Made by a program: the position numbers and the translations under genes
The notes under the pieces: generated by a model
The model's database searches: none
The model's input: the letters and a program-made list of their open reading frames with translations, nothing else
What the model was told of the DNA's origin: nothing
Origin: a virus
Length of the DNA: 61,641 nucleotides
Virus record (IMG/VR): IMGVR_UViG_3300049893_001527
Span: 1 to 61,641 of that record
Strand: one strand, 5' to 3'
Part shown: positions 10,506 to 56,047 of the stretch, in pieces
How positions within the stretch are numbered: position 1 is the stretch's first letter
How the letters are laid out: each line of letters opens with the position of its first letter

Positions 10506-12409
10506 TGGATGATATAGAACGGACAAAACGCAAGGCTTTATTCGTCCCTTGCCAATCCAAGGATTCATTAAAAAGATGGATTAAGATATATTTAGGTCTA
10601 GATATACCCGATACCATACTTTGCGATGACGACACCACTACGCCACCATCCAATTCTAGCCCCATGGATTTATTATGGGAAATATATCATAAGGCATTGG
10701 ATGGTAAAGACGAAGATTTCCAAACAGTTTTGGCTTACGCTGCCCGGGACTCTTATAAAACATTGTCGGCTGCCGTAATGGAAGTGCTTTGTTTGTTCCA
10801 CTTAAGACGTAGCGTAGCCCACATGGCGGCTATTGAATCCCAAGCGGCCAAAGCGGTACAATATGTAGATAAGTTTTTGCGTAGACCGATTTTGAGGGAT
10901 TTCGTTACTTCCAACAACAAAAGAACGGTTGAAATAACTCGTTACGACCACGTTAACTTTAAATATCCTACTTTATCTAAAGCTGAATACGATGCGTTAG
11001 ATATTAGCAAAAAGGGTAGTTATACCGCACATTCTTACTACATTAAAGTAGTTATAGCTACTATGGCTGGTGCGAACTCAGAACACGTACCTTTTATGGT
11101 TTTGGACGAATTAGACTTGGCCCCACCCAAGCCAGTAGAAGAAGCACAAATGATTCCGTCACAGGGGGAAAATGGGGAAGTCCCTATTACTTTAATGATT
11201 TCCAGCCGTAAATTCGCCTTCGGCTTAGTACAGAAAGCATTAGACGAGGCTGAATCAAAGAAAACTATAGTTAGGCATTGGAACTTATTGGATGTAACCA
11301 AAAAGTGTGAACCAACCAGACACCTACCCGAAGAACCTAAAATACCTATATATTATAATGAAAATACTTTAGCGGCTATTAATGAGGCAGATTTTAAGTT
11401 ATTATCACCAGAAACCCAATCAAAATATAAAAAAGCCGAAGGTTTTGCTGGATGCTTAAAGAATTGCTCGTTATTTGCTAGCTGTAAAGGTCGATTAGCC
11501 ACTAAGCCGGTAGGAGATTCTAAATTATATAAGTCTGTAGCGGTTACCAAAGGGGTGTTCCATAAAGTAACAGCAGAAACCGCTAAAGCCCAATTACTTT
11601 GTTGGAAACCATCTAGTGAAGGCTTGATTTACCCCCACTTTGACCGTACCAAACACGTAGTTAGGGCTAGGGCTATGGCGGAACTTATTACAGGAGAACT
11701 ACCGAAAAGCCCATTTTTTAGTAAAGCAGATTTAATTAATTTAATGAAAGCTAGGGGTATGTCTTTTCATTTAGGCATGGACTTCGGCTTTACACACAAT
11801 TTCGCTACAGTTTTAGCGGGTTTAGATGGTCACCGGTTATTTATATTTGACGTACAAGCTGTGGCTGGATTAGAATTAAATGAAAAAATAGGTATTTGTA
11901 AGCCATATTTGGATTATGACCCCACAGTTTATCCAGACCCCGCTTACCCTAGCGACATTAAATCATTTCGCAGGGCTGGCTTTAGGTGTAAGACTTTTAC
12001 CAAAGATATATTAGCTGGAATTGACTCAGTACGTATTAAATTAATGCCGGGTGGTGGCAAAGAACCAGAACTATTTATATTAGGTGGTGACGAAGGTTGT
12101 GAACTATTAGTAGATCGTGTATCAAAATACCATTGGGTATTGGATGATGCGGGTAGGCCAACTGACGTACCAGACGATTCTTTAGATGACGAAGTTGACG
12201 CATTGCGTTATTTGTGTCAAAATTTGTTCGGTCCTAAAGGGAAACCGGTAGCTGCCAGTATTAATCAAACCACCATTACCCAATCCGGGGAATCTACCGT
12301 AATCACTAGGGATAATTGGATGGTGGAGCGTATTAGGACTTTGACGGATGGAAATAGCACTTCAAATATAATAAAAGGCAAGAAGGGCTCCTTTATATTT
12401 GAGGTATAA
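10505..12409 (+). CDS. terL: Terminase large subunit (packaging ATPase-nuclease)
   Basis: 634 residues. The ATPase domain has a Walker A-type AARDSYKTLSA (79-89) and Walker B PFMVLDELDLA (196-206) followed by a coupling motif LMISS. A cysteine set (Cys317, Cys321, Cys327, Cys366) suggests a zinc-bound insertion. The nuclease domain opens with HLGMDFGFTHNFA (Asp426) and ends with SLDDEVDALRYL, giving the RNase H-like acidic residues. It packages DNA through the portal encoded at 13418-15298. A degenerate relative of its ATPase domain is encoded in the tRNA island (48304-48798). Confidence 0.95.
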   Translation: MDDIERTKRKALFVPCQSKDSLKRWIKIYLGLDIPDTILCDDDTTTPPSNSSPMDLLWEIYHKALDGKDEDFQTVLAYAARDSYKTLSAAVMEVLCLFHLRRSVAHMAAIESQAAKAVQYVDKFLRRPILRDFVTSNNKRTVEITRYDHVNFKYPTLSKAEYDALDISKKGSYTAHSYYIKVVIATMAGANSEHVPFMVLDELDLAPPKPVEEAQMIPSQGENGEVPITLMISSRKFAFGLVQKALDEAESKKTIVRHWNLLDVTKKCEPTRHLPEEPKIPIYYNENTLAAINEADFKLLSPETQSKYKKAEGFAGCLKNCSLFASCKGRLATKPVGDSKLYKSVAVTKGVFHKVTAETAKAQLLCWKPSSEGLIYPHFDRTKHVVRARAMAELITGELPKSPFFSKADLINLMKARGMSFHLGMDFGFTHNFATVLAGLDGHRLFIFDVQAVAGLELNEKIGICKPYLDYDPTVYPDPAYPSDIKSFRRAGFRCKTFTKDILAGIDSVRIKLMPGGGKEPELFILGGDEGCELLVDRVSKYHWVLDDAGRPTDVPDDSLDDEVDALRYLCQNLFGPKGKPVAASINQTTITQSGESTVITRDNWMVERIRTLTDGNSTSNIIKGKKGSFIFEV

Positions 12410-12414
12410 TCTTT
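12407..12414 (+). promoter_or_regulatory. Late-promoter-like element TAATCTTT
   Basis: Lies in the 23-nt gap after terL, 26 nt before the ATG at 12433. It overlaps a TATAAT but has no -35 box at 17 nt. First of the repeated YAATCTWW elements. Confidence 0.5.
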
Positions 12415-12432
12415 ACCTAGACTGGACAACCC

Positions 12433-13416: not shown

Positions 13417-13417
13417 A

Positions 13418-15298
13418 ATGGCTAAAACATTACAAGACCAAATAGACGAGGGCTTCAAGCCTAAGCCAGTTAATGTCAAATTTAGCTGGTTAGATCATAA
13501 TGATTTAGCTAAGGCAGAAGAAAAGCATGAGTCCCTAGAAAAGTCGGTGCTGAATTCTTTGGATTCCCTTAAAAGAGGGGAAAAGATACACCGTATAGCG
13601 GTAATGGAAGACCCTAGTAATAGGAATTTCCAAACCTTATGGAAGCCAAAGCGTAATTTATTACCGGACGATGTTTTAAAAAAAATATCGGTACAGGACT
13701 CATTGGTTTCAGCTATTTGGATGGCTAGGGCCAACCATTTAACGGTATTTGGTAGAGAATTACAAGACCGTTTTAGTTTAGGTTATATATTAATGCCTCG
13801 TAAGGGGGTTATGGAAAAGGCTACGGATTCTCAAAAGGAAGAATTGCGTAGTAGAATTAAAAATGCGACTAAGTTGTTGGGGACTTGTGGGTTTACCGAA
13901 GGTTGGTCTAGGGGAGAACAAGAATCCCTACCGGTTTATTTATATAAACAAGCCAAAAATGCATTAATCAATGGTCGATTTGCTACAGAAATCATATATA
14001 CCCGTAAAATGGATGGAACTAGGGTATTTCATGCTTTTAGGTCAGTTGATGCAGGTACAATATATAAAACGGTTCCTAAACTAGAAGCAATAGACCGTAT
14101 TAGACAACAAGCATTGAGTCATTTGCAATCCATCAAGAATGAAAAGTTACAGCCAGAACGTTTCCAAAATGATGAATATGCCTACGTTGAAGTAATAGAA
14201 AACCAACCTAGACAAGCGTTTACGGAAGACGAAATGGTCGTTTGGGATATGTATCCAGTTACGGACTACGAACTTAACGGCTACCCTATTACACCAATTG
14301 ATACAGTAATAAATGATGTAGTAACACACATTAATATAACTACTTATAATAAGTTATATTTCCAAAATGGTCGTGCCGCTAGGGGTATGATTGTAATCAA
14401 GTCTACAGACATATCACCTGATTTGATTACTCAGATCCGTAATCACATGACGGCTAGCATTAATAATGTAAATAACTCTTTCCGAGTACCTGTATTTGGT
14501 GTAGACGTAGAGGATGAAATTAGTTGGCAACCATTTGAGGGCCAAGGTGCCCGGGACATGGAATTCGAGTATTTGTATGATAATAATGCTAGGGCAATAT
14601 TGTCGGCTTTCCAAATTTCCCCTGACGAATTACCGGGTTACAGCCATTTGTCTAAAGGAACCAATAACCAAGCTTTATCAGAATCAAGCAACGAATACAA
14701 AATGGAAGCGGCCCGGGACGTAGGTATTAGACCGCTTTTGCTAAAGTTCCAAGATTTCTTTAATGAAGTAATTATACCTTTAATTGACCCAGTTTTGGCT
14801 CAATTGTGTGTATTGAAGTTTGCTGGCTTGGATGCGGATACAGCCGAAAAGGAATCAACTAGGCTAGCTCAAGACCAACAACTACACATGGATTACGATG
14901 AAATCCGCCTACACGTTGAAAAGGAGCCAGTAGGACAAGAATGGGGTGGTAGGTTCCCACTAAATGCAGCTTATCAAGCTGTTTTGGATAAATATTGGAC
15001 TGTAGGACAAATAAAAGAACACTTCTTTGGTCAAGTGGGGGCCAGCAAAGACCCTAAGTGGGATTATGTAAGAGATCCATTCTGGTTCCAATACCAACAA
15101 CTATTACAAGCTAAAGAGCAAATGGCCCAACAGCAACAACAACAACAAATGCAACAGCAACAAATGCAACAGCCACCCGAAGGTGAGGGGGACCAACCAC
15201 CCGAAGGTGAGGGCGAAGGCCAACCACCCGAGGGTGAATCAGAAATAGCCCAAAAAGCAGACCAAGTGGCACAATTATTAGGTGGAAACAATGGCTAA
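13418..15298 (+). CDS. Portal protein
   Basis: 626 residues. The portal core is seen in the stem/wing region: VINDVVTHINITTYNKLYFQNGRAARG, then EFEYLYDNNARAILSAFQISPDELPGY, and the later RPLLLKFQDFFNEVIIPLID. The C-terminus has a polyglutamine/methionine run followed by three PPEGEG-type repeats, a disordered tail. It forms the dodecameric ring at one capsid vertex through which terminase packages DNA. Starts 2 nt after the previous gene; overlaps the protease gene by 8 nt. Confidence 0.92.
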   Translation: MAKTLQDQIDEGFKPKPVNVKFSWLDHNDLAKAEEKHESLEKSVLNSLDSLKRGEKIHRIAVMEDPSNRNFQTLWKPKRNLLPDDVLKKISVQDSLVSAIWMARANHLTVFGRELQDRFSLGYILMPRKGVMEKATDSQKEELRSRIKNATKLLGTCGFTEGWSRGEQESLPVYLYKQAKNALINGRFATEIIYTRKMDGTRVFHAFRSVDAGTIYKTVPKLEAIDRIRQQALSHLQSIKNEKLQPERFQNDEYAYVEVIENQPRQAFTEDEMVVWDMYPVTDYELNGYPITPIDTVINDVVTHINITTYNKLYFQNGRAARGMIVIKSTDISPDLITQIRNHMTASINNVNNSFRVPVFGVDVEDEISWQPFEGQGARDMEFEYLYDNNARAILSAFQISPDELPGYSHLSKGTNNQALSESSNEYKMEAARDVGIRPLLLKFQDFFNEVIIPLIDPVLAQLCVLKFAGLDADTAEKESTRLAQDQQLHMDYDEIRLHVEKEPVGQEWGGRFPLNAAYQAVLDKYWTVGQIKEHFFGQVGASKDPKWDYVRDPFWFQYQQLLQAKEQMAQQQQQQQMQQQQMQQPPEGEGDQPPEGEGEGQPPEGESEIAQKADQVAQLLGGNNG

Positions 15299-17471: not shown

Positions 17472-17921
17472 ATGCTAAATAATATTTTAAGAATCTATGC
17501 TTTAAGGTTTAAGGGGCAAGACCACTATTGGGTACTTGCTGGCAAGGTATTTTTGGACCAACCCAATAAGAAATTAGTATGGTTGGAAGACCATACTGAC
17601 ATAAAATCCTTGTTGGGAGACAGCTTGGACGATACATTTATCAGACGTATCAATTCAATGAATGCCAATGGTAGATTTAAAGTAGTGCCAGAATCCCATT
17701 TACACGTATATCATCCAGAAGCCCTACCTAGACACGATTTAGGGGATTCTGCGCCAGACCATAAGTTCAAAGTAATTGGGCCCGACATAAATGTCATAGT
17801 AGAATTCCATGGCCCCAATGCGGTAATTAACGGGAAAAAGGTATCTGAGGAAGAATTAAAGCCCATAACAGATAAATTAAATAGCGGTGAATATCATTTG
17901 GAGCCATTAAATGCCGTATAA
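17472..17921 (+). CDS. Hypothetical head-block protein, 149 residues
   Basis: Follows the protease-kinase gene with no gap and overlaps the next gene by 11 nt. It begins with a compact beta-rich region (YWVLAGKVFLDQPNKKLVWLEDH) and ends with a helical acidic segment. No motif recognised. Coupling to its neighbours suggests a virion or assembly role. Confidence 0.7.
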   Translation: MLNNILRIYALRFKGQDHYWVLAGKVFLDQPNKKLVWLEDHTDIKSLLGDSLDDTFIRRINSMNANGRFKVVPESHLHVYHPEALPRHDLGDSAPDHKFKVIGPDINVIVEFHGPNAVINGKKVSEEELKPITDKLNSGEYHLEPLNAV

Positions 17922-18790: not shown

Positions 18791-18798
18791 CAATCTAA
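18791..18798 (+). promoter_or_regulatory. Late-promoter-like element CAATCTAA
   Basis: Intergenic, 34 nt before the ATG at 18825; an AGGAG site follows at 18812-18816. A TTGTCA at 17 nt from the overlapping TAAGGT could be a partial -35 box, the only copy with one. Confidence 0.5.
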
Positions 18799-18824: not shown

Positions 18825-19292
18825 ATGGCTTATAAATCAAAGAAGGCATCAGCAACCATGCGTCAATTGAAGGACGACCTTGGTCAACGTTTGGGTTCCA
18901 CTTTTACACTAACTGAAAGTGTTGGCGTATCAGACAATTATCCTACACTAGTAGTTGGCGACGCTACCCCAGCAGCCGGTGAAGATGGTTGTTTTATTAA
19001 AATTGGTCCCGAAGATGGCGTAGTACAAGCTCTAAACGCGGTTGGTGGTACACAAGACGTATTTACCCCACATATCGTACACGTAGCGTTTGAACAATCT
19101 GCCGTATTGGGACAAACCCTTGCCAGCATGGCGTTCGTAACCCGTGTTCTTTCACACCTATTAACTTTGGGTATGAAGGTCAAGGTATACCACTCTGCTA
19201 ACGGTGTATTCCCGGTAGAAGGTACATTGATTGCTGGTAACCTAAAGGTAACTATCGATCAATTGTGGCACCCACTAACTCAAACGTTGTAA
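18825..19292 (+). CDS. Probable small capsid-block structural protein
   Basis: 155 residues with a strong Shine-Dalgarno site and codons biased toward CTA, GTA and CGT as in the major capsid gene, which suggests high expression. The fold looks beta-rich with two hydrophobic stretches (VLGQTLASMAFVTRVLSHLL in the C-terminal half). Position before the scaffold and capsid genes and its own late-type element make a decoration or stabilising head protein likely, without a recognised family. Confidence 0.7.
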   Translation: MAYKSKKASATMRQLKDDLGQRLGSTFTLTESVGVSDNYPTLVVGDATPAAGEDGCFIKIGPEDGVVQALNAVGGTQDVFTPHIVHVAFEQSAVLGQTLASMAFVTRVLSHLLTLGMKVKVYHSANGVFPVEGTLIAGNLKVTIDQLWHPLTQTL

Positions 19293-19297
19293 TCTTA
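19290..19297 (+). promoter_or_regulatory. Late-promoter-like element TAATCTTA
   Basis: Overlaps the stop codon of the previous gene, 36 nt before the ATG at 19326. No -35 box at the expected distance. Confidence 0.5.
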
Positions 19298-19325: not shown

Positions 19326-21776
19326 ATGTCAAAATTCGACCAAGATGTTGCCGCGCTTATCAAAGAAGCGCGGCAACAAATAAGTGAATTAATTAAGTCT
19401 AGCCAAGAAGAATTGGCTAAAGCTACTATTGGTGAAGTGCTTGAGGCTAAGGCTAAGGGCGAATCATCACCAGAATCATCACCAGAATCATCACCAGACG
19501 TACCCAAATCAGTTAGTTCAAAACCTGTTGGTGTATTAGTTAAAAAGCCGGGGCAACCAAAGCCTGTATTAGATAGGGCGGTTACCCCTGCTAGTCCATT
19601 TATTGCTGGTCGTGATGTTCCAGCGACAGCAGAAAAATTCCCGCAAGTAGTTTCTAAGCCAGAATTTATTGCACAACCTACAAGTAAATCCCCAAAGCCT
19701 GAAATAGAAGACAAAAGTGTTCAACATGATCCGCATCAACATTTGTCGGATAAAATGAAGCTTTTGGGAAACATTTTAGAGCAACACCCAACAAATCCAG
19801 ACGTAGCTAAAAGAGTAGCTAGATCGTTTGCGGATTACATGGTTGCACACAAAGATACCGCCAAAACGTCTAACAAAAAAGAAAGCCATATAGGATCTAG
19901 TAAGGATGCTGCTGCTGGTTTACTAGCACAACCAACTCTAACAGCAAAGTATAGAGCCAAACACGATCCAAAGTTTAGAAAAGAATTGTTAGCTCAACCC
20001 GAATACCAAGACGTATTAGACGAAAAGGGTGAATTAAAATCCAAGCCAGACTTAGGCGATTTTGAGCATTGGACCAAAAAGATGCTAGATATTGCATCTG
20101 GCCAACGTGAACCATTAGAAAATGAGCCTTCAAAAGAAGAAGCGTCCGAAAAGCTATTAAGCTTTTTGCAACACGCTCCTTTGGCTGACCAAGTAAAACA
20201 ACGTGTAGCTCGCGGTTATAAAGACGCAAATGTCACAGCCCGCGTAGCTACACCAGAAGAAATAGCCGATCCGGCATTTTATGAACAATTGTTTGGTAAG
20301 CAAAGCAGGCAACAAGCCGAACACCAACCTGACCCATTATTGCCAGACGAGCTTGATAGTGGCCAAACTACAGACACCGGTTATGAGGGTGGAGCAATCA
20401 AGGATAAAGGCGGTAAAGGTGGGACAAAGGCGGGATTTGGTAATTATGGTTCTGCTATCCCAAGTATTGCTAAATTACAGCAATGGGCCGAAACCAGACC
20501 CGAATATGCTTTTTTGCAACGTCAACAAAATCCAGATGGCACCTATGAATCATTGGAAACCCACCATCAACGTTTGGAAAGTGCCAGAAACAAACTAATA
20601 GATGCTCAAAACGCTGCTAGAAAAAAAGCAGATAAATCTTCATTTTTGGCGTCACCAGAAGAAAAAGCTGCACTAGCAGCCCGTAAAGCCGCTGTTGGCC
20701 AAATTGGTCAACCCGGTGGACCACAACCTAAAAAGGTAGAAGTACCGGATAAAATTAAATCAAAAGTAGAACAACAACCAACCGTAGGTTTTGGTGGTAT
20801 GGGTGGTTCTAGTGGGGATACATGGAATGCGGTTCAAGTAGCCCAACAATTACATGATGAAGTACAAGCCCACAAAAAGCAAAATGAATCCGCACGTTTA
20901 TGGCAAACGCCAGAAGGTCAAGCTAAAATATTGGCTAGACACAAATCAGAAATGATGGCTCATAAGGATCTTCAAAAGGATCCGGTCTTAACTAGTGCTT
21001 TAATACACCCATCTTTTATGCAAACCGTTATGGATAGCGGTAGATTTAGGGTAGATCCGGCTACTAAGCAATCTGTACCATATGTGGATAAATTGTTAGA
21101 AATACCATCTTTGAAAAACTATGCACAAAAAATTCAAGGTGATGTTGTCAAACAAGTCTCAGATGAATTAAAGGCTAGTGGTCGTGGGGCAGATCCACAA
21201 GCAGTAAATGAAGGTGTAGCTAAAAAAATGGGCCAAATGTTAGGCCAAAAAATAGTTCAATCTCGTGCCGCAAAAGCACAAAGCTTAATGGCTAAAAAGC
21301 CGGGTGTTAAAATGCGTCCCGGTGTAGGTATTACACCTACCGCATCCCATAGTGGACGTATAGCGGAAACCATTAAACGTATTAGGTCAAAGCCTTTTGG
21401 TACTAGAGCATTTACTGGAACAGGTAATATGCCTGACAATTGGGAAGATAGCCCACCAAAGGGTGTTGGAAGTATAGCTAGATTACCAGATGAAGCAACC
21501 CCGGAATATGTTGATAGAACTGGCCTATTGGGTAATAAGAAAAAAGCGACAGACGTAGCAACAAAATCTAAAATAAGTGGTCCAGAAGCAGACGCTACGG
21601 CACAAAAAATAAAAGCCGATCATGCTGCGAAAGAAGCAGCAAAACTAGCAGCTAATGTAAAACCGGGTAAATTAGAACAAACACCTTGGAAACCCGGGGA
21701 AAAAGAAGCTTGGATACAAACCGGGGATAGATTGGCTAAGATAAAAGCAGAACTTGGAAAAAAGAAGAAGTCCTAA
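19326..21776 (+). CDS. Large disordered lysine/glutamine-rich virion-block protein
   Basis: 816 residues from the ATG at 19326. It is strongly hydrophilic, with low-complexity Ala-Lys-Gln-Pro-rich segments, an ESSPESSPESSP repeat at about residues 50-60 and a coiled-coil-like start (DQDVAALIKEARQQISELIK). No enzyme motif was seen. Placed before the scaffold-like gene and capsid gene, it may be an inner-core or ejected head protein that is cut by the prohead protease; this is inference. Confidence 0.7.
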   Translation: MSKFDQDVAALIKEARQQISELIKSSQEELAKATIGEVLEAKAKGESSPESSPESSPDVPKSVSSKPVGVLVKKPGQPKPVLDRAVTPASPFIAGRDVPATAEKFPQVVSKPEFIAQPTSKSPKPEIEDKSVQHDPHQHLSDKMKLLGNILEQHPTNPDVAKRVARSFADYMVAHKDTAKTSNKKESHIGSSKDAAAGLLAQPTLTAKYRAKHDPKFRKELLAQPEYQDVLDEKGELKSKPDLGDFEHWTKKMLDIASGQREPLENEPSKEEASEKLLSFLQHAPLADQVKQRVARGYKDANVTARVATPEEIADPAFYEQLFGKQSRQQAEHQPDPLLPDELDSGQTTDTGYEGGAIKDKGGKGGTKAGFGNYGSAIPSIAKLQQWAETRPEYAFLQRQQNPDGTYESLETHHQRLESARNKLIDAQNAARKKADKSSFLASPEEKAALAARKAAVGQIGQPGGPQPKKVEVPDKIKSKVEQQPTVGFGGMGGSSGDTWNAVQVAQQLHDEVQAHKKQNESARLWQTPEGQAKILARHKSEMMAHKDLQKDPVLTSALIHPSFMQTVMDSGRFRVDPATKQSVPYVDKLLEIPSLKNYAQKIQGDVVKQVSDELKASGRGADPQAVNEGVAKKMGQMLGQKIVQSRAAKAQSLMAKKPGVKMRPGVGITPTASHSGRIAETIKRIRSKPFGTRAFTGTGNMPDNWEDSPPKGVGSIARLPDEATPEYVDRTGLLGNKKKATDVATKSKISGPEADATAQKIKADHAAKEAAKLAANVKPGKLEQTPWKPGEKEAWIQTGDRLAKIKAELGKKKKS

Positions 21777-21781
21777 TCTAA
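21774..21781 (+). promoter_or_regulatory. Late-promoter-like element TAATCTAA
   Basis: Overlaps the stop codon of the previous gene, 35 nt before the ATG at 21809. No -35 box at 17 nt. Confidence 0.5.
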
Positions 21782-21808: not shown

Positions 21809-22621
21809 ATGGCAAAACTACGTAAAGATGATGAAACCGCAGCAAGCGCACCAGCGCCAGAAGAAACTTCTAGCCCTGCGCCAATGGATACTGATGGTCC
21901 AGATGCTTCTTTGGAAGGATCTGATGAAGTAGAACCATCTACAGCTAGTGATGCCGGGGCAGACCCGTCCGCGTCCGAAGATGCGGCCCTAGGGGACGCG
22001 GGCGAAGGCGTAGCCGGTGACGACACCGCTGCATTAGTTCAAGCTCTAAGTGCATTGCCACCAGAAAAGCTAGAACAATTAGTTAATGCTATAGAACAAG
22101 TAATTATGTCTAAGGGTGGTGAAGCGGGTGGTGAAACCGCACCAGTAGACGGTCAAGGCGATGCGGGCCAAGCTGCTTCACCGCCAGCCGAAGCCGGTGC
22201 AGAACCCGGGCCAGTAGGACAGGATGCAGGCCAATTAGCACCAGAAATGGGTGCCCCACCAGAAATGCCACCAGAAGAACAACTAGCTCAATCCGAAAAG
22301 GTTGTTCCAAGCGAAGCTTTAGTAAAGTCAGAAGCTAAAGTTGCTGAATTAGAAAAAGCTGTTGGTGATCTAATTGGCACTTTGGAATCAGTATTGACAC
22401 AACCAGTACGTAAGGCTGGAAAAGAATTAGCTAAGGCAGAAAAGCCAGCCATGCCAAAGTTCTCTGAATTAAATAAATCAGAACAAACTAAAGCTCTAAC
22501 TGGTTTATCACGCAATCCGTCACTAACCAAATTCGAACGTTCTAAGATCAATGACTTCGTGTTGTCTAAGTCAGTTTCTATCAATGAGATAGAATCAATC
22601 TATGAAAAGTATAACAAATAA
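21809..22621 (+). CDS. Acidic scaffold-like protein
   Basis: 270 residues from the ATG at 21809 (GGAG at 21799-21802). The first two thirds are Ala/Glu/Pro/Gly-rich and highly acidic, with hardly any fold; the last third is a basic helical region (KAVGDLIGTLESVLTQPVRKAG and LNKSEQTKALTGLS). An acidic disordered protein immediately upstream of the major capsid gene is the usual profile of a scaffolding/core protein. It has its own late-type element and the capsid gene follows after 18 nt. Confidence 0.68.
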   Translation: MAKLRKDDETAASAPAPEETSSPAPMDTDGPDASLEGSDEVEPSTASDAGADPSASEDAALGDAGEGVAGDDTAALVQALSALPPEKLEQLVNAIEQVIMSKGGEAGGETAPVDGQGDAGQAASPPAEAGAEPGPVGQDAGQLAPEMGAPPEMPPEEQLAQSEKVVPSEALVKSEAKVAELEKAVGDLIGTLESVLTQPVRKAGKELAKAEKPAMPKFSELNKSEQTKALTGLSRNPSLTKFERSKINDFVLSKSVSINEIESIYEKYNK

Positions 22622-26728: not shown

Positions 26729-26895
26729 TGCGGATTATGTGGGATATTTGCGTAGCGATTAGCTTAATTTGGTGTATTGTATTGCTAAATACGGCCATAC
26801 ACGAACCATTATTAAGAGAACACGTACCCGGGGCATTAATATCGGTGGGGGCTATAGGTTTAGGGTATTATTTGAGATTTAGGCAGCAATCTTAG
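26728..26895 (+). CDS. 55-residue protein with two membrane segments
   Basis: ATG coupled to the previous stop. The protein has a hydrophobic segment at residues 5-22 (WDICVAISLIWCIVLL) and another at 35-50 (GALISVGAIGLGYYL) joined by a short polar loop, with a basic end RFRQQS. Two helices and this size would suit a class II holin or a small membrane regulator, but no endolysin is adjacent, so the role is open. Its last codons overlap a late-type element. Confidence 0.55.
   Translation: MRIMWDICVAISLIWCIVLLNTAIHEPLLREHVPGALISVGAIGLGYYLRFRQQS
26887..26894 (+). promoter_or_regulatory. Late-promoter-like element CAATCTTA
   Basis: Overlaps the end of the 55-residue gene, 28 nt before the ATG at 26915. 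An AGGAG site follows. This marks the return to structural genes after the thyX module. Confidence 0.5.
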
Positions 26896-28189: not shown

Positions 28190-30096
28190 TGGCAGACCAA
28201 TCAGAACCACTAGAAAAAGCTGCGCCGCACATAGCGGCTTTCTTGGCTGCTGCCCAATTATTTACCGCCAAACCACACAAAACGGAACCGGCGGCTCCAA
28301 AAGTTGCAGCTACTAAGCAATCAGCTAAATCTACCCCCAAGCCCCTACCCTATGGGCCACACTTGCCGACTACTAACTCCGAGCGGGTAGCCCAGCCGTT
28401 CCCTGTATCCGCCGAACTGACCCAAGGCTTGCCGTCTGAAATGCATCCTATCATGCATTTGGAGTCCCGTAACGGACAAAACCAAAACCACGCTGTAGTA
28501 AATAATAATAAATGGCAAACAGCGCACGGACACCTAGGTTTTATGCCGTTTACCGCCCACGAACGTTATATGAAAAATCCGTCTATGCGGACAATGTTCC
28601 CGGGTTTGGAATCGGCAGATAAGTTTTATAAAACATTTACTACTAATGTTAATTTTTATAATACTTTAGCATATTTACATTGGGATTATTTAGGGAAGCG
28701 TTTAGGTAATAATTTGTCAAGAATGGCTTATGGTTGGCGTTTGGGCGAGGGGGCAGCTAAGAAAGCCGATGACCAAACAGCGCAATCCCATTCTTATGTA
28801 AAAGGATATCACGCCCATGCCCAAAATATTCAACCTCAACCAACGGTTACCAAACAAGCGCCTATTAAGAAATCTGAACCAATAGATGAATTTGCAGTTA
28901 AGTTTAAACAATGGATTTATAAAAAGCGCAAAAAGCTAAAGAAATCCGCTACTTACGATAATCTTATGGGTGATATTACGGATTTAGACCGTAAGATGGC
29001 CCGTAAGATGATTGGTAATGAAATATTAGATACACCAGAATTCAAGTCTGCTAGGTTTTTGGCTAAGGAATCCACCCCTAAAGCCAATCGCCTACAAGAC
29101 GCTTTGGCCATTTACGAACACAACCACATATTAGCTGCTTTGTATGCTTATGGGCTGCCTACCAACGATGAATTTGTGGCTAAAATTCAATCAATTATGC
29201 AATTGAGGGTAGGAGAACTAACTAAGGCTGCCGCCGAATACCAAGTCAAGCCCTTAAACATAGAATCCCGCGAAATCGCTGAATACCTACAAGAATCCTT
29301 TAATACTGGCCAATTTGAATCAGTACACTTAAAGGGTAAATATAATGAAGGTTCTATGATTGTAGTTAACAATAGAACACACAACAAATGGCTATTAAAG
29401 CCAGATCAACCACACAACTCGCCAGCTTCCGGGGTAGATCAAGAACCCATTGGGCAATCTCGTAGGGAAGTAATTAATTCCAAGGTAGCTGAACTATTAG
29501 GGATAGGGAATTTCGTAGTTAGTTCAGACTTGGTAGATATAAATGGAAAAGAATATGCTGCGATGGAATTCTTCAATTCCGATTATTCTGGTTTACACAC
29601 AAGAATGACCAATGGTGAAGATATAAAGAACATATTAGAGCCATATAGGGCCAGCGGGTTGTTATTTAAGTGGGCCTTTATGGATTATATATTAGGTAAT
29701 ACGGATCGGCACGGCATGAACGTAATGGCTGATTCTTACGGTAACATTAAATTAATAGACCATGGAAGTTCATTAGCTGGGGATGAATTTGACCCAGCCA
29801 ATGACCCTAATTCATTTATACCATATTATTTACGAGCATATTCCGTACACGACAACTTTAGGGATTTGTCACCACATGACCGTTATCACAGGTTCCCTAA
29901 AGGCAATTACCAATTAGAGCATGAATTCGCGCAATTTGTTCAAAGTGTAAGTGTGGAAGCTATTTGGCAAGTCCTACATAATTATGGGGCCAAAACCGAA
30001 GCCGTAACGCATCGCGTCAAAGAATTAAAGTCAATTCCACCAGAACACGTATTGAGTTATCTATTGGAAATATGGGCCGGTATAGTGGACCCGTAA
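28189..30096 (+). CDS. Lytic-transglycosylase-like region fused to a HipA/PI3K-like kinase domain
   Basis: 635 residues. After a disordered start, residues about 85-200 resemble a lysozyme/SLT domain: HPIMHLESRNGQNQNHA (a candidate catalytic Glu at about 93), GHLGFMPFTAHERYMKN and MAYGWRLGEG. A lysine-rich linker follows. The C-terminal 250 residues carry an atypical kinase set: KWLLKPDQP (about 399, ATP lysine), YILGNTDRHGMNVMAD (about 500, DRHxxN loop) and KLIDHGSS (about 521, metal Asp). It shares this domain with the protease-kinase protein at 15291-17471. A virion-injected enzyme acting on cell wall and then on a host target is possible but inferred. Confidence 0.68.
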   Translation: MADQSEPLEKAAPHIAAFLAAAQLFTAKPHKTEPAAPKVAATKQSAKSTPKPLPYGPHLPTTNSERVAQPFPVSAELTQGLPSEMHPIMHLESRNGQNQNHAVVNNNKWQTAHGHLGFMPFTAHERYMKNPSMRTMFPGLESADKFYKTFTTNVNFYNTLAYLHWDYLGKRLGNNLSRMAYGWRLGEGAAKKADDQTAQSHSYVKGYHAHAQNIQPQPTVTKQAPIKKSEPIDEFAVKFKQWIYKKRKKLKKSATYDNLMGDITDLDRKMARKMIGNEILDTPEFKSARFLAKESTPKANRLQDALAIYEHNHILAALYAYGLPTNDEFVAKIQSIMQLRVGELTKAAAEYQVKPLNIESREIAEYLQESFNTGQFESVHLKGKYNEGSMIVVNNRTHNKWLLKPDQPHNSPASGVDQEPIGQSRREVINSKVAELLGIGNFVVSSDLVDINGKEYAAMEFFNSDYSGLHTRMTNGEDIKNILEPYRASGLLFKWAFMDYILGNTDRHGMNVMADSYGNIKLIDHGSSLAGDEFDPANDPNSFIPYYLRAYSVHDNFRDLSPHDRYHRFPKGNYQLEHEFAQFVQSVSVEAIWQVLHNYGAKTEAVTHRVKELKSIPPEHVLSYLLEIWAGIVDP

Positions 30097-30101
30097 TCTA
30101 G
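30094..30101 (+). promoter_or_regulatory. Late-promoter-like element TAATCTAG
   Basis: Overlaps the stop codon of the previous gene, 27 nt before the ATG at 30121, with a TAGGAG site between. Confidence 0.45.
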
Positions 30102-32090: not shown

Positions 32091-32098
32091 TAATCTTA
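32091..32098 (+). promoter_or_regulatory. Late-promoter-like element TAATCTTA, 13 nt before an ATG
   Basis: In CCCCTAATCTTACGCAC followed directly by the ATG at 32104. There is no room for a leader or Shine-Dalgarno site, so the message would be leaderless if the element is a -10 box. Confidence 0.55.
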
Positions 32099-36623: not shown

Positions 36624-36631
36624 TAATCTTT
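36624..36631 (+). promoter_or_regulatory. Late-promoter-like element TAATCTTT, 13 nt before an ATG
   Basis: In CCCCTAATCTTTCTAAC followed by the ATG at 36637, the same spacing and the same CCCC flank as at 32091. Confidence 0.55.
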
Positions 36632-37629: not shown

Positions 37630-37637
37630 TAATCTAA
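37630..37637 (+). promoter_or_regulatory. Late-promoter-like element TAATCTAA abutting a start codon
   Basis: Directly followed by ATG at 37638; a second in-frame ATG lies 14 nt from the first base, at 37644, which would be the start of a leaderless message. Confidence 0.5.
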
Positions 37638-37643
37638 ATGGCT

Positions 37644-39231: not shown

Positions 39232-39239
39232 TAATCTAA
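39232..39239 (+). promoter_or_regulatory. Late-promoter-like element TAATCTAA before the tail sheath
   Basis: 33 nt before the ATG at 39265, with a GGAGA site between. The AATCTAAGGT context equals that at 18791. Confidence 0.5.
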
Positions 39240-39264: not shown

Positions 39265-42192
39265 ATGGCCCAATCATTTACTACGGACGATGGCAGCATA
39301 TTAATTATTCCCGGGGCTTATCCTCAAGTCAAGGTTCAAAAGACCAATGCTGGTTTAGCGGCAGTAGGGGTATTAGCTTTGGTAGGGGAAGCCGATGCTG
39401 GTCCAGATCATTCCGCTGAATCTGATTTATCAGAAGTCTTTTTCGGACCAGACCAAGAAGCAGATGTAGTAGCTAAATATAAGTCAGGTAACCTAGTAGA
39501 TGCTTTCCGTGCAGCAGTAGCAGCGGCTAATGACCCAGCTATTACCGGGGCTCCTACTGGTGTTTATCTATTAAAGACCAATGTAAGTGGTAAGGCTCAA
39601 TCTGAAATGGATCGGGCTGGTTTGACGGATTATGCTGTATTAGCTGATAAAACATATGGTAAAACTGGTAACTTTTTGTATTGGAACGTCCAAACCGATA
39701 CTGCCGAATCTGCGCCTACTACCGGTAATTTCGTTTATGTACCATTTATTACATTAACTGCTCCTAGCCCAATTTGGCACGTAAATGGTGGGACAGCCCT
39801 TTCACACGCAAATATTGGTACAACTGGCCAATCACCAAATGAATTTGTACGCCAAATTAACGTTAACTTAACTGGTGTAATGGCTACTGGTGGTACTAAT
39901 CGTAATGTATTGTCATCTTTCGTAGATGCAAATACATTAGCTTTAAACGTAACTGCTGGAAATGACGCGGTTATTACTGGTAGCGTAGCATGGGGAACCA
40001 ATCCAACTGCCGGGGATATCTTAATTATTGCCAAGGCTACCGATGGTATTACTGGCGTAGCTCAAGCATCGGTATTATTGGGTGCTGGTAATGCAAATTG
40101 GGGTGCATGGATTGTAACTAGCGCAACCAATACAACTATTAACGTAACCAAAATCAGGGATATGAATGCTGCTACCGTAACAGCGCCAGCAAACGTAGTA
40201 GCTACTGCGGTAGATACTGAACACACCGATATCTTGGTATTTGCTCCGGTTGTAGTAAAGAATATGACCGGCACAAATCGTAGTATTCTAACTGGTAAGG
40301 TAGGTAATGCCATTAGTTGTGTAGCGTCTGGTTCAACTTTGACTGTTACATTGGCTAGCGGTTGGGCTTCTAGACCACAAATCGGTGACATAGCTTATTT
40401 GGCTTCTACGGCAACTGGTATTGCTGGTGCGGCTACTGCAAGTCCTGCGCCAACTGCTAACGAAAACGTTGGTTGGTGGGAAGTAACTAGTTCAACCACT
40501 ACTACGGTTACATTAAATGCATTAAACGGTCAAACTCCCGGTAATGATGCCGGAACCGTTCAAGGCGTAACTGATTTAGTGGTTTACCGTCCCACAATAG
40601 ACGGTACTGGCAAAACAATGGAAATTGCTGGTACAAGTCTAACCGATTTCGTTAAGACTACTGGTGGGGCAGCCGTAAGCTGGATTTCTACTGCTGGAAG
40701 TCCTTATGTAATAACGTCTACTGCCGAACAAACACAAACCCTAAATGTATTACGTTCAACTGACACTACCAATGAAGAAATCACCGAAGGTGGTACGGTA
40801 GTATTGAAACTAGGGTATGAAGGTTCCGGCGCAAGCACCGTAACTATTACAAATACTCAACTATCCACTAGCGTAACTGGTGGAACTGGTACTAACCAAA
40901 CCTTATTGTTCAAGGATTTCACTACAGTAGCGGCTTTGGCTACTTATTTAAATAACCAAACAGGATATACTTGTGAAGTTGGTTCAGCATTAGTAGGCCA
41001 ACTACCACTACAAAAGGTATTCCTAGTAGCGGACGTACAAACAAAGAAATCCGTGTTAGATTTGGGTACTTACGGCATTTTGGGTACTTACGATGGTGCA
41101 ATGCCATGCCGTATCAAGCACGACGCTTACGCTTTCAATGAAGAACTAATGGCTGTAAGTGCCTCAGTCCAACTAGGGACAGACGATGACGGGTCAATCA
41201 AGCGGGACCAAGGATTACCTGAATCTACTATTGACCCTGTTACTGGCCAACCATTTAATACATTCTTAAGTGGTGGAACCAAGGGCTCAACTACTAATAC
41301 ATTAGTAGACGGTGCCATTGACGCTTGCGAATCCCTACGTTTGAATTTCTTGGTTACTCTATTTAGCCAAGACGCTACAGACGACATAGCAGAAAACTTG
41401 ACAGAATCAGGTTCTACTTATACTATTGACTCTATCAATGCATTAGTAAAGACACACGTAATTAAAATGTCTACTACTAAGCGTCGTCGCCACCGTCAAG
41501 GATGTGTTTCAAAGCGTGGTAGCTTTACAGAAGCTAAGACTGCTGCTAATAACTTGGCTAACTACCGTGTAAATTGTGCATTCCAAGATGTAAAACAATT
41601 AGATTCAACTGCTACTATCAAGCAATTCCACCCTTGGATGGGTTCAGTATTAGCTGCTGGTATGCAAGCTGCTGCCTTTAACAAATCAATCCTAAACAAA
41701 GGTATTAATTGTTCAGGGATTTTGATGGGCGACGGGTCATTTAATGACCAATTGGATTCTGACCTAGAATCAGCCCTAAAGAATGGTTTATTGGTGGCTC
41801 GTAGAACGGAAGACGGACGCTTGGTATGGGTAGCAGACCAAACTACTTATGCTACGGATTCAAATTTCGTTTACAATTCAATGCAAGCCATTTATTGTGC
41901 GGATATCGTATCGTTGTCAACCGCACAACGTATGGAACGTGCATTCGTAGGGGAATCTCTAGCCGATGTTTCAGCTACGGCTGCATTATCATTCTTGAAG
42001 GGCGTAATGTTGGATTTCCTACGCCTAAAGCTAACTGTAGGGGATGATGAAGCGCCACTAGGTTTCCGTAATGCCCGTATTCAAATCAGCGGTAATACAA
42101 TGAAAGTATCGCTAGAAGTCAAACTAGCTACCGCTATCGTATTTATCCCAATCAGTTTCTTGGTAACAGAAGTACAATCTTCCGCAGGTTAA
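39265..42192 (+). CDS. Contractile tail sheath protein
   Basis: 975 residues. The conserved sheath body is in the C-terminal third: SGILMGDGSFNDQLDSDLES, NGLLVARRTEDGRLVWVADQ, TYATDSNFVYNSMQAIYCAD and MERAFVGESLADVS, ending with a beta region (IQISGNTMKVSLEVKLATAI). The N-terminus DGSILIIPGAYPQVKVQK is typical of sheath openings. A long beta-rich insertion (about 130-560) with repeated TVTLASG-type strands likely decorates the tail surface. Defines the phage as a myovirus. Codon bias and Shine-Dalgarno are strong. Confidence 0.88.
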   Translation: MAQSFTTDDGSILIIPGAYPQVKVQKTNAGLAAVGVLALVGEADAGPDHSAESDLSEVFFGPDQEADVVAKYKSGNLVDAFRAAVAAANDPAITGAPTGVYLLKTNVSGKAQSEMDRAGLTDYAVLADKTYGKTGNFLYWNVQTDTAESAPTTGNFVYVPFITLTAPSPIWHVNGGTALSHANIGTTGQSPNEFVRQINVNLTGVMATGGTNRNVLSSFVDANTLALNVTAGNDAVITGSVAWGTNPTAGDILIIAKATDGITGVAQASVLLGAGNANWGAWIVTSATNTTINVTKIRDMNAATVTAPANVVATAVDTEHTDILVFAPVVVKNMTGTNRSILTGKVGNAISCVASGSTLTVTLASGWASRPQIGDIAYLASTATGIAGAATASPAPTANENVGWWEVTSSTTTTVTLNALNGQTPGNDAGTVQGVTDLVVYRPTIDGTGKTMEIAGTSLTDFVKTTGGAAVSWISTAGSPYVITSTAEQTQTLNVLRSTDTTNEEITEGGTVVLKLGYEGSGASTVTITNTQLSTSVTGGTGTNQTLLFKDFTTVAALATYLNNQTGYTCEVGSALVGQLPLQKVFLVADVQTKKSVLDLGTYGILGTYDGAMPCRIKHDAYAFNEELMAVSASVQLGTDDDGSIKRDQGLPESTIDPVTGQPFNTFLSGGTKGSTTNTLVDGAIDACESLRLNFLVTLFSQDATDDIAENLTESGSTYTIDSINALVKTHVIKMSTTKRRRHRQGCVSKRGSFTEAKTAANNLANYRVNCAFQDVKQLDSTATIKQFHPWMGSVLAAGMQAAAFNKSILNKGINCSGILMGDGSFNDQLDSDLESALKNGLLVARRTEDGRLVWVADQTTYATDSNFVYNSMQAIYCADIVSLSTAQRMERAFVGESLADVSATAALSFLKGVMLDFLRLKLTVGDDEAPLGFRNARIQISGNTMKVSLEVKLATAIVFIPISFLVTEVQSSAG

Positions 42193-43802: not shown

Positions 43803-43810
43803 TAATCTTA
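43803..43810 (+). promoter_or_regulatory. Late-promoter-like element TAATCTTA before the tail tube
   Basis: In the gap before the tail tube, 26 nt from the ATG at 43829. Confidence 0.5.
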
Positions 43811-44296: not shown

Positions 44297-44356
44297 CTAA
44301 TTAGTTAAATCCCGGCAATTTAAACCCCCGATATCCAAGCGGTATCGGGGGTTTAG
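44293..44356 (+). terminator. Terminator closing the structural block
   Basis: A TTAACTAATTAGTTAA palindrome overlaps the tail-tube stop (44293-44308). A 12-bp stem AAACCCCCGATA (44322-44333) with TATCGGGGGTTT (44343-44354) follows, then AGTTTT. The stem is strong, though the T-run is short. Confidence 0.85.
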
Positions 44357-50131: not shown

Positions 50132-50389
50132 ATGGAACGTTTTAAAACAGAAAACTTTGCAAGACTCGGCAAAACTTGTGCTAGGTGTGGTGAAATTGCC
50201 TATAGCGGAATCAGGGATACCGAAACCCCGGGTTTGTTTGTGCATATTAATCGGCTTATTTGTGACAGATCGTTAGATGAACAAAATCGGGAACTTGACA
50301 AGGCGTGGGACGAGGGGTATAGTGAAGGCCACGATGAAGGGTACGATGAAGGGTATGAAGATGGTGTCGCAGCTAACAAGGATGATTGA
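50132..50389 (+). CDS. Small CxxC protein with a DEGY-type acidic repeat
   Basis: 85 residues, AAAGGA then ATG 50132. Contains TCARCGE (a CxxC pair) and a C-terminal tail with repeats EGYSEGHDEGYDEGYEDG. Function unknown. Confidence 0.65.
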   Translation: MERFKTENFARLGKTCARCGEIAYSGIRDTETPGLFVHINRLICDRSLDEQNRELDKAWDEGYSEGHDEGYDEGYEDGVAANKDD

Positions 50390-50473: not shown

Positions 50474-50518
50474 CTATAATCTTTTGCATAACAGGTGGTG
50501 TTATGCAAAAGATTATAG
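50474..50518 (+). promoter_or_regulatory. 19-bp perfect hairpin sequestering the start codon of the HNH gene
   Basis: CTATAATCTTTTGCATAAC (50474-50492) is fully complementary to 50500-50518 across a 7-nt loop AGGTGGT. The loop holds the Shine-Dalgarno site; the ATG (50503) is in the right arm. It starts on the base after the tRNA-Asn discriminator. Confidence 0.92.
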
Positions 50519-53153: not shown

Positions 53154-53227
53154 GCGGATATGATGGAATTGGCATACATATTAGGTTTAGACCCTAAGTT
53201 TTGCAGGTTCGACTCCTGCTATCCGCA
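53154..53227 (+). tRNA. tRNA-Leu(TAG) with a short variable loop
   Basis: Acceptor GCGGATA/TATCCGC, anticodon stem TTAGG/CCTAA, loop TTTAGAC, T stem GCAGG/CCTGC. The variable loop is only 5 nt; Leu tRNAs normally have a long arm. Confidence 0.8.
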
Positions 53228-53242
53228 CTAAAGGTAAAACAA

Positions 53243-53647: not shown

Positions 53648-53650
53648 TAC

Positions 53651-53986
53651 GGGGGTAACAAGGTTTCGACGTAGAAATGAAATCCTCAAAGGCAAGCCGT
53701 AGTTGGTCGTTGGCTACGTTAAAAAGCGACTAAAGCATAAAAGACGCTGACATGGCTCTAGCAGCAGCTTAATTGTTGTTGCCCTTTTATTATAAATGCG
53801 AATATATAATAAAAGGTAAAGAATTCGCTAAGGCTCCGGTGGTTTAGGTGGTGGCTAACAAGCCTAGGGGCACAAAAATCAAAGTCAGCTACCCTAGTAG
53901 TAGCCTTGTAGGGGGTTAATCCTACTAAGCTTGTAGAATTTAGGACGTAGGTTTTACGGACGCGGGTTCGATTCCCGCTACCTCCA
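53651..53986 (+). ncRNA. ssrA: Transfer-messenger RNA
   Basis: 336 nt. The 5' end GGGGGTAACAAGGTTTCGACG and the 3' T arm GCGGG-TTCGATT-CCCGC with acceptor TACCTCC form the tRNA-like domain; GGGGGTA pairs with TACCTCC with one G-T. The tag frame (53734-53772) reads SIKDADMALAAA then TAA, though the exact resume codon is inferred. It ends in ALAAA rather than the usual ALAA. Rescues stalled ribosomes and tags proteins for proteolysis. It closes the RNA island. Confidence 0.92.
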
Positions 53987-54004
53987 ACCGAAGCGCGCTG
54001 TACG

Positions 54005-54050
54005 ACCCCTAGATTATCCTAAATGGGATAATCTAGGGGTTTTTATTTTT
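54005..54050 (+). terminator. Strong terminator after the tmRNA
   Basis: A 15-bp stem (54005-54019 with 54026-54040) with a 6-nt loop, followed by TTTTTATTTTT. It ends the RNA island transcript. Confidence 0.95.
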
Positions 54051-54052
54051 CG

Positions 54053-54082
54053 GGCTATCAATCTTTACGGCATTGGGGATTA
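54053..54082 (+). repeat. 30-bp exact direct repeat, copy 1 (with a late element)
   Basis: GGCTATCAATCTTTACGGCA plus ten more bases to TTGGGGATTA; identical to 56018-56047. It lies upstream of the first tailspike gene and carries CAATCTTT at 54059-54066 and a GGGG Shine-Dalgarno-like site. Confidence 0.85.
54059..54066 (+). promoter_or_regulatory. Late-promoter-like element CAATCTTT before the first tailspike
   Basis: 28 nt before the ATG at 54087, within the 30-bp repeat. The following ACGG is shared with the second tailspike element. Confidence 0.5.
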
Positions 54083-54086
54083 CGGT

Positions 54087-56012
54087 ATGGCTACCATTTC
54101 GGAAGCTGCTAGAGAATTAATTAATAGACAATGGGAAGAATTGTGTAAATTGTTGGGATATAAGTCATCTATTCCGTTGGGTGACTTTATTTCTAGTGAG
54201 CAAAGCAAAGATATAGAAAATCTGGGTACTGGTGCTGGTGTTTTAAAAGAATTTGCCGATAACTCCTTTTTTCTTAAGTCAATCAAAGAAGGCCAAAATA
54301 TTGTTGTTGATAATAATACTGATGAAATTGTAATTAATGCCGTACAGTCTACTTACGGTAATCATGTTGTACCTGCAACGGGCTCTAGGGCGGATTTGGT
54401 AACTGCTATAGAATCCTTAAGTGGAAATAATGGTACAGTACATATAGTTCAAAATACAACTATAGATACTGCCAATGTAACAGTACCTAGTAACGTGCAT
54501 TTAATTATAGAACCAACGGCTAAGTTGATTGGTAGTAACGATAAGAAAATAATTGTAGACGGAACGTTAGAGGCGTCTGCTCATCAAATATTTCAGGGAT
54601 TTGGTGCTACCGATGTAGTATTGCGTGGTCCCATTGACCGTATTTATCCACAATGGTTTGGAGCCAAAGCCGATGGCGTGACAGACGATACCGCTGCTAT
54701 TCAAGCAGCTATTAATGCGGCTAAAATCGAAATATCAACAGCATCTAAAACGGTGTATTTTTTGCCGGGTGTTTACTTGGTAAAGGGGACGTTGACGGTA
54801 TCTGGTACTGGTACGTTATTGGTTGGGGAACATTGGCGTAAATCGGCTATTCGGCATTCCCCAATTGTTGCTAATACCGATTGTGTGGTGTTTGAATATG
54901 CAACACCGTATGGTCATGGCAATGGATTTCAGGGATTGTTAGTAGAATCTACTACGACAAATAGCCGTAGGTTGTTGTCGGTAATAAATCAACACACATT
55001 CGCTGCTAGCGATTTTTATGTATCTGGTGGTGGATTTGCGAAAACGGGTATATATTTAGATTATTTAGTTAATTGTGTTTTTAAGAATTTTAAAAGTAAT
55101 GATTTTAGCGGGGTTGGGTGTCAGGGTGTGGAATCTGGACTTAATTCTTCTACAACTTGTAGCTTTAAAAAGGGTTATATTGGTTCAAACAAAAACGGAA
55201 TGGTTTTAAATGGTAGTACGTGGTTTTTGGAAGATACAATTATTGAATCTAACTCAAATGTGGGTATTTTTTTAGAAGCAGCGAATGTTGACTTAAGTAA
55301 TTGCCATTTTGAGAATAATCCTGTAGCGTCTATTTATTCTGGCACAAGTGGTAATATAAATAGCTATAGGTCTATTTATTTGGTCGGAATTTCTGGTACT
55401 CCAACAGCACAAATAGATATAAAATCAGGGAAATTTAATAGTTTTGGTGATTCTTGGTCCGGCAATTGTCCTTTGGTTAGATTAAATAGAGATGGCGTTA
55501 AACAATTAAATACCGAAGCAGCTATATTTAATTTAAATATTCCATTCAATTTCCCCGATGTAGTAGAAATTGTTAAAGATGATTCGGGCGTAATAGCTGG
55601 CACGCCTAGCTGGAAAGACCATTCGTCTTTGTATGGTCAATTTTGCGGTTCTGCGCCTATTATACGAGAAAGTTCTGCTGTTTTAAATGGTGGTGTTAGT
55701 TCATTAATGATTTTATCCGATGGGGGGGCTAGATGGCTGTTGAATGGCAGCATTACGGTTGATAAGCCTACTGCTTCGAATGGATCAACCCCAACTACGC
55801 AAACTTTGCATAATAAACGTTTTCAATTTATGTTTGAGCAAGGCGCGGGGGGCGGAAAAACCGTAGCTTTTAATCCTACTTATTGGAAACTATTGCAAGC
55901 GGTGCCAAATGGGGCAATAGCTACCGCTGGCCAACGTTTAACTGTTTGGTTTAAATATGAAGCCGACATAGGCTTATGGGTTCAGGATACTCCATTTTTG
56001 GGATGGGGTTAA
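54087..56012 (+). CDS. Tailspike 1, pectate-lyase-type beta-helix
   Basis: 641 residues. N-terminal anchor (RELINRQWEELCKLLGYKSS, LGDFISSEQ) followed by a small beta module NLGTGAGVLKEFADNSFFLK. From about 200, WFGAKADGVTDDTAAIQAAI is the pectate-lyase/tailspike beta-helix signature, with coils (NCVFKNFKSNDFSGVG, NCHFENNPVASIYSG) running to about 470. A beta-rich C-terminal domain follows. Binds and possibly cuts surface polysaccharide; catalytic residues not identified. Confidence 0.85.
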   Translation: MATISEAARELINRQWEELCKLLGYKSSIPLGDFISSEQSKDIENLGTGAGVLKEFADNSFFLKSIKEGQNIVVDNNTDEIVINAVQSTYGNHVVPATGSRADLVTAIESLSGNNGTVHIVQNTTIDTANVTVPSNVHLIIEPTAKLIGSNDKKIIVDGTLEASAHQIFQGFGATDVVLRGPIDRIYPQWFGAKADGVTDDTAAIQAAINAAKIEISTASKTVYFLPGVYLVKGTLTVSGTGTLLVGEHWRKSAIRHSPIVANTDCVVFEYATPYGHGNGFQGLLVESTTTNSRRLLSVINQHTFAASDFYVSGGGFAKTGIYLDYLVNCVFKNFKSNDFSGVGCQGVESGLNSSTTCSFKKGYIGSNKNGMVLNGSTWFLEDTIIESNSNVGIFLEAANVDLSNCHFENNPVASIYSGTSGNINSYRSIYLVGISGTPTAQIDIKSGKFNSFGDSWSGNCPLVRLNRDGVKQLNTEAAIFNLNIPFNFPDVVEIVKDDSGVIAGTPSWKDHSSLYGQFCGSAPIIRESSAVLNGGVSSLMILSDGGARWLLNGSITVDKPTASNGSTPTTQTLHNKRFQFMFEQGAGGGKTVAFNPTYWKLLQAVPNGAIATAGQRLTVWFKYEADIGLWVQDTPFLGWG

Positions 56013-56017
56013 ACAAA

Positions 56018-56047
56018 GGCTATCAATCTTTACGGCATTGGGGATTA
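56018..56047 (+). repeat. 30-bp exact direct repeat, copy 2
   Basis: Identical to 54053-54082, upstream of the second tailspike gene. Only the bases next to the ATG differ (TAT here, CGGT there). Confidence 0.85.
56024..56031 (+). promoter_or_regulatory. Late-promoter-like element CAATCTTT before the second tailspike
   Basis: 25 nt before the ATG at 56049, in the second repeat copy. Confidence 0.5.

Follow-up and report, generated by a model that had tools for sequence, protein, structure and literature searches.

YAATCTT, a putative late promoter of Mx1-like myophages with a truncated phage sigma factor as its likely reader

The IMG/VR virus record IMGVR_UViG_3300049893_001527 (61,641 bases, 40.7% guanine-plus-cytosine (GC), 22 transfer RNA (tRNA) genes and a transfer-messenger RNA (tmRNA); hereafter the window, meaning the whole stretch of DNA that was analyzed) carries a recurring YAATCTT motif in short gaps ahead of its virion genes, and this motif very probably serves an Mx1-like myophage as its late promoter, with a truncated sigma factor encoded by the phage itself as the reader. 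A late promoter class had been proposed from the bare sequence of the window (the original prediction), and we find it supported by enrichment of the motif upstream of genes, by its conservation before orthologous genes in phages of 41-63% GC, and by a candidate cognate sigma factor that lacks a reader for the -35 element.

Results and discussion

Enrichment of the motif upstream of window genes

The sole close named relative of the window phage is Myxococcus phage Mx1 (OR576727.2, 169,621 bp, 55.5% GC), with 59% protein identity in TerL and 67% in the major capsid protein, and a common gene order of helicase-sigma-SbcD, TerL, portal, capsid, sheath and tRNA island. Further, uncultivated relatives were taken from IMG/VR, four with lengths of 165-172 kb; genes were called with a simple gene caller made for this analysis, and the relatives are non-independent samples. 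Of the phages that carry the motif, one is from Myxococcus and the others are probably from different hosts. A scan for relatives with the 528-aa protein encoded at 37638-39224 as query found nothing, and an 818-aa window protein had no phage match.

TAATCT or CAATCT is present at all 13 positions originally listed, followed by two A or T bases at 12 of them (the exception being TAATCTAG at 30094), and the list, sound as far as it went, was incomplete, leaving out 22596 and 42175. Across the window, YAATCTWW occurs at similar frequency on both strands (19 copies on the + strand, 15 on the - strand), so that any claim of enrichment has to rest on position. Positionally, most + strand copies lie 13-44 nt upstream of virion genes, and sense copies fall in 10 of the 47 gene-upstream intervals of the window gene set, where antisense copies fall in none, the rate in coding sequence predicts 0.21, and 200 dinucleotide shuffles give a mean of 0.45 and a maximum of 3. 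De novo k-mer counting returned TAATCT as the top enriched 6-mer before window genes (8 versus 0.09 expected, p=6.5e-14); an extended pattern with TAG downstream of the motif gave nothing.

Conservation across phages and gene classes

Pooling five relatives of ~165-172 kb, the top enriched 7-mer was CAATCTT, found in 60 gene-upstream intervals versus 3.3 expected (p≈1e-53), with TAATCTT ranked third. Sense-upstream counts of YAATCTT exceeded antisense counts, coding expectation and dinucleotide shuffles in five long genomes, and across all genomes the motif occurred 104 times within 60 nt before genes versus 4.7 on average for 59 permuted cores, of which the most frequent (YTAATCT, 19) overlaps YAATCTT. 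The chance occurrences against which the original prediction wanted its motif counted are thereby far exceeded, and both computational checks that it proposed, de novo motif discovery (here by k-mer counting) and the comparison of coding with upstream sequence, came out strongly in the motif's favor in the window and in the relatives. As a positive control, the same approach applied to T4 late genes returned TATAAATA, and YAATCT stood before only 1 of 40 genes there.

The motif also keeps its place before particular genes. YAATCT lies within 75 nt upstream of the gene following TerL in 50 of 52 distinct phages (antisense, one), the remaining two having GAATCTT there, and a motif precedes the sheath gene in all seven phages, at 30-43 nt in the six relatives compared. 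Before SbcC, GroEL, sigma, SbcD or TerL it was found in none of seven phages compared; in one relative (G008), GAATCTAT stands before the helicase gene. Matches are strongly biased toward the structural-gene strand (11:0, 15:2, 20:0, 15:0 and 18:0 in five genomes, p 1e-4 to 1e-8), and in Mx1 they precede 7 of 11 annotated structural genes versus 1 of 34 metabolic genes, that single match lying within the gene itself. Together, strand bias, avoidance of metabolic genes and the orthologue pattern bear out the proposal that the element marks virion genes and not early-type genes.

Motif anatomy, start point and leaderless genes

The motif was described from 91 distant sites in 12 genomes, a set from which spacings below 13 nt are excluded by construction. 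Its first base is C in 71% and T in 29%, position 7 is T in 81% and A in 19% (sites having been chosen to carry T or A there), and a weak G (62%) occurs four bases upstream. The YAATCTWW consensus first proposed thus holds for its core and first W; the second W is not conserved, and YAATCTT fits better. No column from -40 to -6 rises above 0.07 bits in these sites, a flatness that agrees with the earlier remark that most sites lack a plausible -35 box, and a host sigma-70 -35 hexamer was not found 16-18 nt upstream.

The spacing to start codons was counted over 129 distinct YAATCT[AT] sites within 60 nt of starts, with no lower cut-off. Measured from the first motif base, start codons fall at distances of 13 to 60 nt, 18 of the 129 at exactly 13 nt and five at 14; only one start is nearer, and the gene concerned (window 37638) offers another ATG in frame at 14. 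Separate spacing collections agree, including one that allowed distances down to 7 nt. In addition, 45 of 80 deduplicated distant sites from six genomes have a pyrimidine-purine (Y-R) step at index 12/13, versus 19% at neighboring offsets (p=1.5e-13), and in none of the six does any other offset exceed this one. The start-codon cut-off and the Y-R step place the predicted transcription start at about index 13, i.e., ~13 nt after the first motif base and inside the 12-14 nt given in the original prediction. With a start there, late genes whose ATG lies at 13-14 nt are predicted to make leaderless messenger RNA (mRNA), and the Mx1 orthologue of the gene at 36637 likewise has a motif-to-start spacing of 13 nt. 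For the Mx1 genes at 7617, 36563, 75289 and 121405, the predicted transcript start coincides with the AUG. By comparison, 26 of 32 genes with 24-30-nt spacing have a Shine-Dalgarno sequence in the leader. Leaderless phage mRNAs are known as such, and phage transcripts have been described as "often leaderless" (PMC5312081).

These spacings bear on annotation. To fit the motif, two starts should be reassigned, to 36637 in place of GTG 36604 and to 37644 in place of 37638, and a third should probably be set at 32104. The two sites at 54053 and 56018 are identical 30-nt cassettes, both preceding tail genes. The site at 9585 is kept as uncertain because orthologues lack the motif there (Table 1).

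A phage sigma factor that ends before region 4.2

The candidate reader of the motif is a phage sigma factor whose Mx1 counterpart (WNM70309.1) is annotated as a putative sigma. Its layout comprises an N-terminal helical part, region 2, region 3, a linker and region 4.1, and its profile matches RpoD over the stretch between region 2 and "RMRFGI" of region 4.1, both included (hmmsearch, E 4e-9); Pfam Sigma70_r2 matches 4 of 8 family members, at best with 9e-4. In RpoD, the next residues after region 4.1 form the -35-binding helix-turn-helix. In the phage family, the C-terminus lies at most about 20 residues past "LLRLKG" in ~45 members with a covered 3' end, and none of the members so covered has a region 4.2 helix-turn-helix. 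A frame-shifted continuation into region 4 was considered and rejected, as the bases after the stop encode an unrelated 141-aa open reading frame. Structurally, an AlphaFold2 model (pLDDT 87) matched sigma-A of initiation complexes in Foldseek (E 7e-6). Records retrieved for the relatives contain the gene where they span this part of the genome, arranged as sigma-TerL-post-TerL gene-portal.

Within region 2.4, W433/W434 are replaced by V and by A or I in the phage sigma, Q437 by a nearly invariant R (R204 in the window) and T440 by G, with R441 variable. In the E. coli sigma, Q437H and T440I suppress a T-to-C change at -12 (PMC2613000), and the arginine at the Q437 position is consistent with a first promoter base that is mostly C.

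Several observations concern the sigma gene and its surroundings. Directly after it, 8234-8659 encodes a small protein with a similar-sized Mx1 counterpart at 3075-3539, which could be a candidate partner standing in for region 4. At two loci (L140:9989-12229 and L141:466-2706), the sigma gene has a length of about 2.2 kb, with a C-terminal "RKLLKMKG" kept in both, and the former carries an intein inside (Pfam Intein_splicing 3e-10). Relatives of the gene also occur in metagenome-assembled genomes (MAGs; L142-L147), namely in four contigs of the Deltaproteobacteria MAG bog_1112 and in Saprospiraceae and Saccharibacteria MAGs, which are probably phage contigs binned with their hosts.

Proposed mechanism and alternatives

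Mechanistically, we posit that the host RNA polymerase would first read TTGACA-N17-TATAAT promoters, one of them ahead of the sigma gene, and that the phage sigma would then steer the host core polymerase to single-element, -10-type YAATCTT promoters before virion genes. Retaining region 2, the -10 reader, but ending before region 4.2, the sigma would have no need of a -35 box, and none is found. Transcription would begin about 13 nt past the first motif base, so that some late genes would have their ATG exactly at the start point and be leaderless, and most others would be preceded by a brief leader in which a Shine-Dalgarno sequence is usually present. We infer the reading of the motif by this sigma, the timing and the start point from the patterns described above. 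Reasonably likely, too, is a wider reading in which a ~170-kb phage family has a late sigma truncated after region 4.1 and purely "-10-only", an arginine at the Q437 position that goes with tolerance of C as the first promoter base, and a considerable share of leaderless virion mRNAs, arising because the promoter is set exactly 13 nt before the ATG.

Four points weigh against this account. The 62 nt ahead of the major capsid orthologues contain no motif; late genes thus do not all have a copy to themselves, and some of them are probably read from promoters further upstream. The Y-R initiator was not replicated in another 43 sites, most of which were the one site after TerL in further phages (9 of 43, p=0.36). 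The structural match of the sigma is to whole sigma-A with only 14-20% identity and TM-scores near 0.4, and the link between sigma and motif rests on co-conservation and architecture.

Binding of the motif by the phage sigma being a prediction, a host sigma might be the reader instead, be it an alternative factor or the main one recognizing an unusual -10 box, since the motif is -10-like, with A at position 2 and T at position 6 as in TATAAT. We consider this improbable, given that the motif is constant across phages of widely differing GC that probably have different hosts, that no -35 element accompanies it, and that the records covering the region hold a phage sigma without a -35 reader. 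Somewhat less probable still is an RNA-level element of late mRNAs, such as a translation enhancer or processing site: the motif does lie close to start codons, and its 13-nt lower limit could equally reflect a ribosome footprint or processing, but the spacing ranges up to 60 nt, most genes in the 24-30-nt class have a separate Shine-Dalgarno sequence, the Y-R initiator is fixed relative to the motif and not to the start codon, and a dedicated sigma factor is present. A chance or compositional artefact, e.g., upstream-gene TAA stops followed by CT, would account for the near-equal strand counts in the window and for the overlap of an upstream TAA stop at 12407, 19290, 21774 and 30094, yet it is already refuted by the conservation of orthologous positions across phages, by the permuted cores and by the dominance of CAATCT, which is not a stop codon, and we give it practically no weight.

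Comparison with known phage sigma systems

Late transcription in T4 uses promoters with no -35 element, and its gp33 is a mimic of sigma region 4 (PMC2988020). The system proposed here would resemble that of T4 gp55 in having a single -10-type element before virion genes, no -35, the host core polymerase and a phage sigma without a functional region 4 reader, and the neighboring genes are of similar kinds (SbcCD-like genes and a helicase). It differs in the motif itself, in the T4 promoter-to-start distance of 22-36 nt with no leaderless class, and in the sigma, gp55 belonging to phrog_234 with no profile similarity to the window sigma of phrog_351; for want of a profile match, gp55 was rejected as its homologue. 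No gp33 equivalent was identified here, no search having been aimed at gp33 or clamp genes.

A second comparison is gp36 of phiEco32, a sigma without region 4 homology whose tAATGTAtA promoters start transcription 6-8 bp after the element (PMC8948821). Common to both are a single AAT-core element, the absence of a -35 and a phage sigma without region 4, whereas gp36 is a 214-aa protein annotated as an ECF sigma (phrog_1740), its motif differs in the 3' half, and it has six sites as opposed to about 15-20 per genome here; it, too, was rejected as a homologue, with no profile match. Phage 7-11 gp47 is likewise a late sigma encoded by a phage, but it bears region 4 and has a bipartite GTAAtg-16-aCTA promoter (PMC8948821). 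RpoD/SigA is similar in the alignment through regions 2-4.1, the sigma-A fold and the A and T at hexamer positions 2 and 6; unlike RpoD/SigA and extended -10 promoters, the phage sigma ends before region 4.2 and its presumed motif mostly begins with C.

Early promoters, RNA island and neighboring genes

Between the two early blocks of the window lies a divergent pair of host-type promoters (Table 1), and the RNA island has TTGACA-N17-TATAGT at 50295 and TTGACA-N17-TACAGT at 45145. The earlier assignment of TTGACA-N17 promoters to early-type operons and the RNA island therefore holds where it matters. The island, with its 22 tRNA genes, ends with the tmRNA at 53651-53989 (tag DADMALAAA; Rfam RF00023, 131 bits), and a strong terminator-like hairpin bounds it on either side (Table 1). 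Directly after tRNA-Asn, an inverted repeat TAATCTTTTGCATAAC...GTTATGCAAAAGATTA at 50477-50515 mimics the motif on both strands; 50477 and 54029, each in the arm of a hairpin, were not counted as sites.

Divergent from the sigma operon, 3183-4907 encodes a GroEL-like chaperonin (phrog_5725, 2e-83) that is kept in Mx1 and relatives. On the virion strand, 32104-32889 has a weak, below-cut-off match to Pfam mCpol (minimal CRISPR polymerase; 1.4e-4), and the Mx1 head cluster has an annotated "nucleotide cyclase" at 17173-17904. The head-maturation-protease-like gene at 15282-17471 shows a weak C-terminal match to Pfam PI3/PI4-kinase (8e-6), just below cut-off.

Table 1 Coordinates of the sigma gene and of predicted regulatory elements in the window.
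Feature	Position	Strand	Sequence	Context
Phage sigma factor	7213..8223	+		336 aa; phrog_351 1.8e-10; ends before region 4.2
Late promoter	12407..12414	+	TAATCTTT	Before 12433 (gene after TerL); predicted start ~12420
Late promoter	18791..18798	+	CAATCTAA	Before 18825
Late promoter	19290..19297	+	TAATCTTA	Before 19326
Late promoter	21774..21781	+	TAATCTAA	Before 21809 (scaffold position)
Probable late promoter	22596..22603	+	CAATCTAT	44 nt before major capsid gene 22640
Late promoter	26887..26894	+	CAATCTTA	Before 26915
Late promoter	30094..30101	+	TAATCTAG	Before 30121; kept in 5/6 orthologues
Late promoter	32091..32098	+	TAATCTTA	13 nt before ATG 32104 (predicted leaderless)
Late promoter	36624..36631	+	TAATCTTT	13 nt before ATG 36637 (predicted leaderless)
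Late promoter	37630..37637	+	TAATCTAA	14 nt before in-frame ATG 37644 (predicted leaderless)
Late promoter	39232..39239	+	TAATCTAA	33 nt before tail sheath gene 39265
Probable late promoter	42175..42182	+	CAATCTTC	33 nt before 42208
Late promoter	43803..43810	+	TAATCTTA	Before 43829
Cassette, promoter and leader	54053..54082	+	CAATCTTT at 54059	30 nt; before tail spike gene 54087
Cassette, promoter and leader	56018..56047	+	CAATCTTT at 56024	30 nt; before 56049
Uncertain site	9585..9592	+	CAATCTTT	20 nt before ATG 9605
Host-type promoter	5057..5085	-	TTGACA-N17-TATAAT	Perfect; toward GroEL/SbcC-like genes
Host-type promoter	5102..5130	+	TTGACA-N17-TATAAT	Perfect; ahead of helicase-sigma genes
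Terminator-like hairpin, strong	44320..44356	+		Closes late block before tRNA island
Terminator-like hairpin, strong	54004..54041	+	TAATCT in stem	After tmRNA; next late promoter follows

Significance

No description of the motif or of Mx1 transcription turned up in the literature searched, and the part of the Mx1 genome announcement that we consulted mentions no promoters (PMC10720576). Judged from sequence, YAATCTT is almost certainly a previously undescribed promoter code used across a large family of Mx1-related phages, and its presumed reader would add a further phage late sigma without -35 recognition to T4 gp55 and phiEco32 gp36. Because the truncation falls directly before the DNA-binding helix, the mechanism of -10-only initiation becomes testable, and Mx1 can be cultivated on M. 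xanthus DK1050. For the wider family, the motif corrects start codons, offers a sequence marker by which late genes can be recognized in phages that lack annotation, and predicts that capsid and tail mRNAs may be leaderless.

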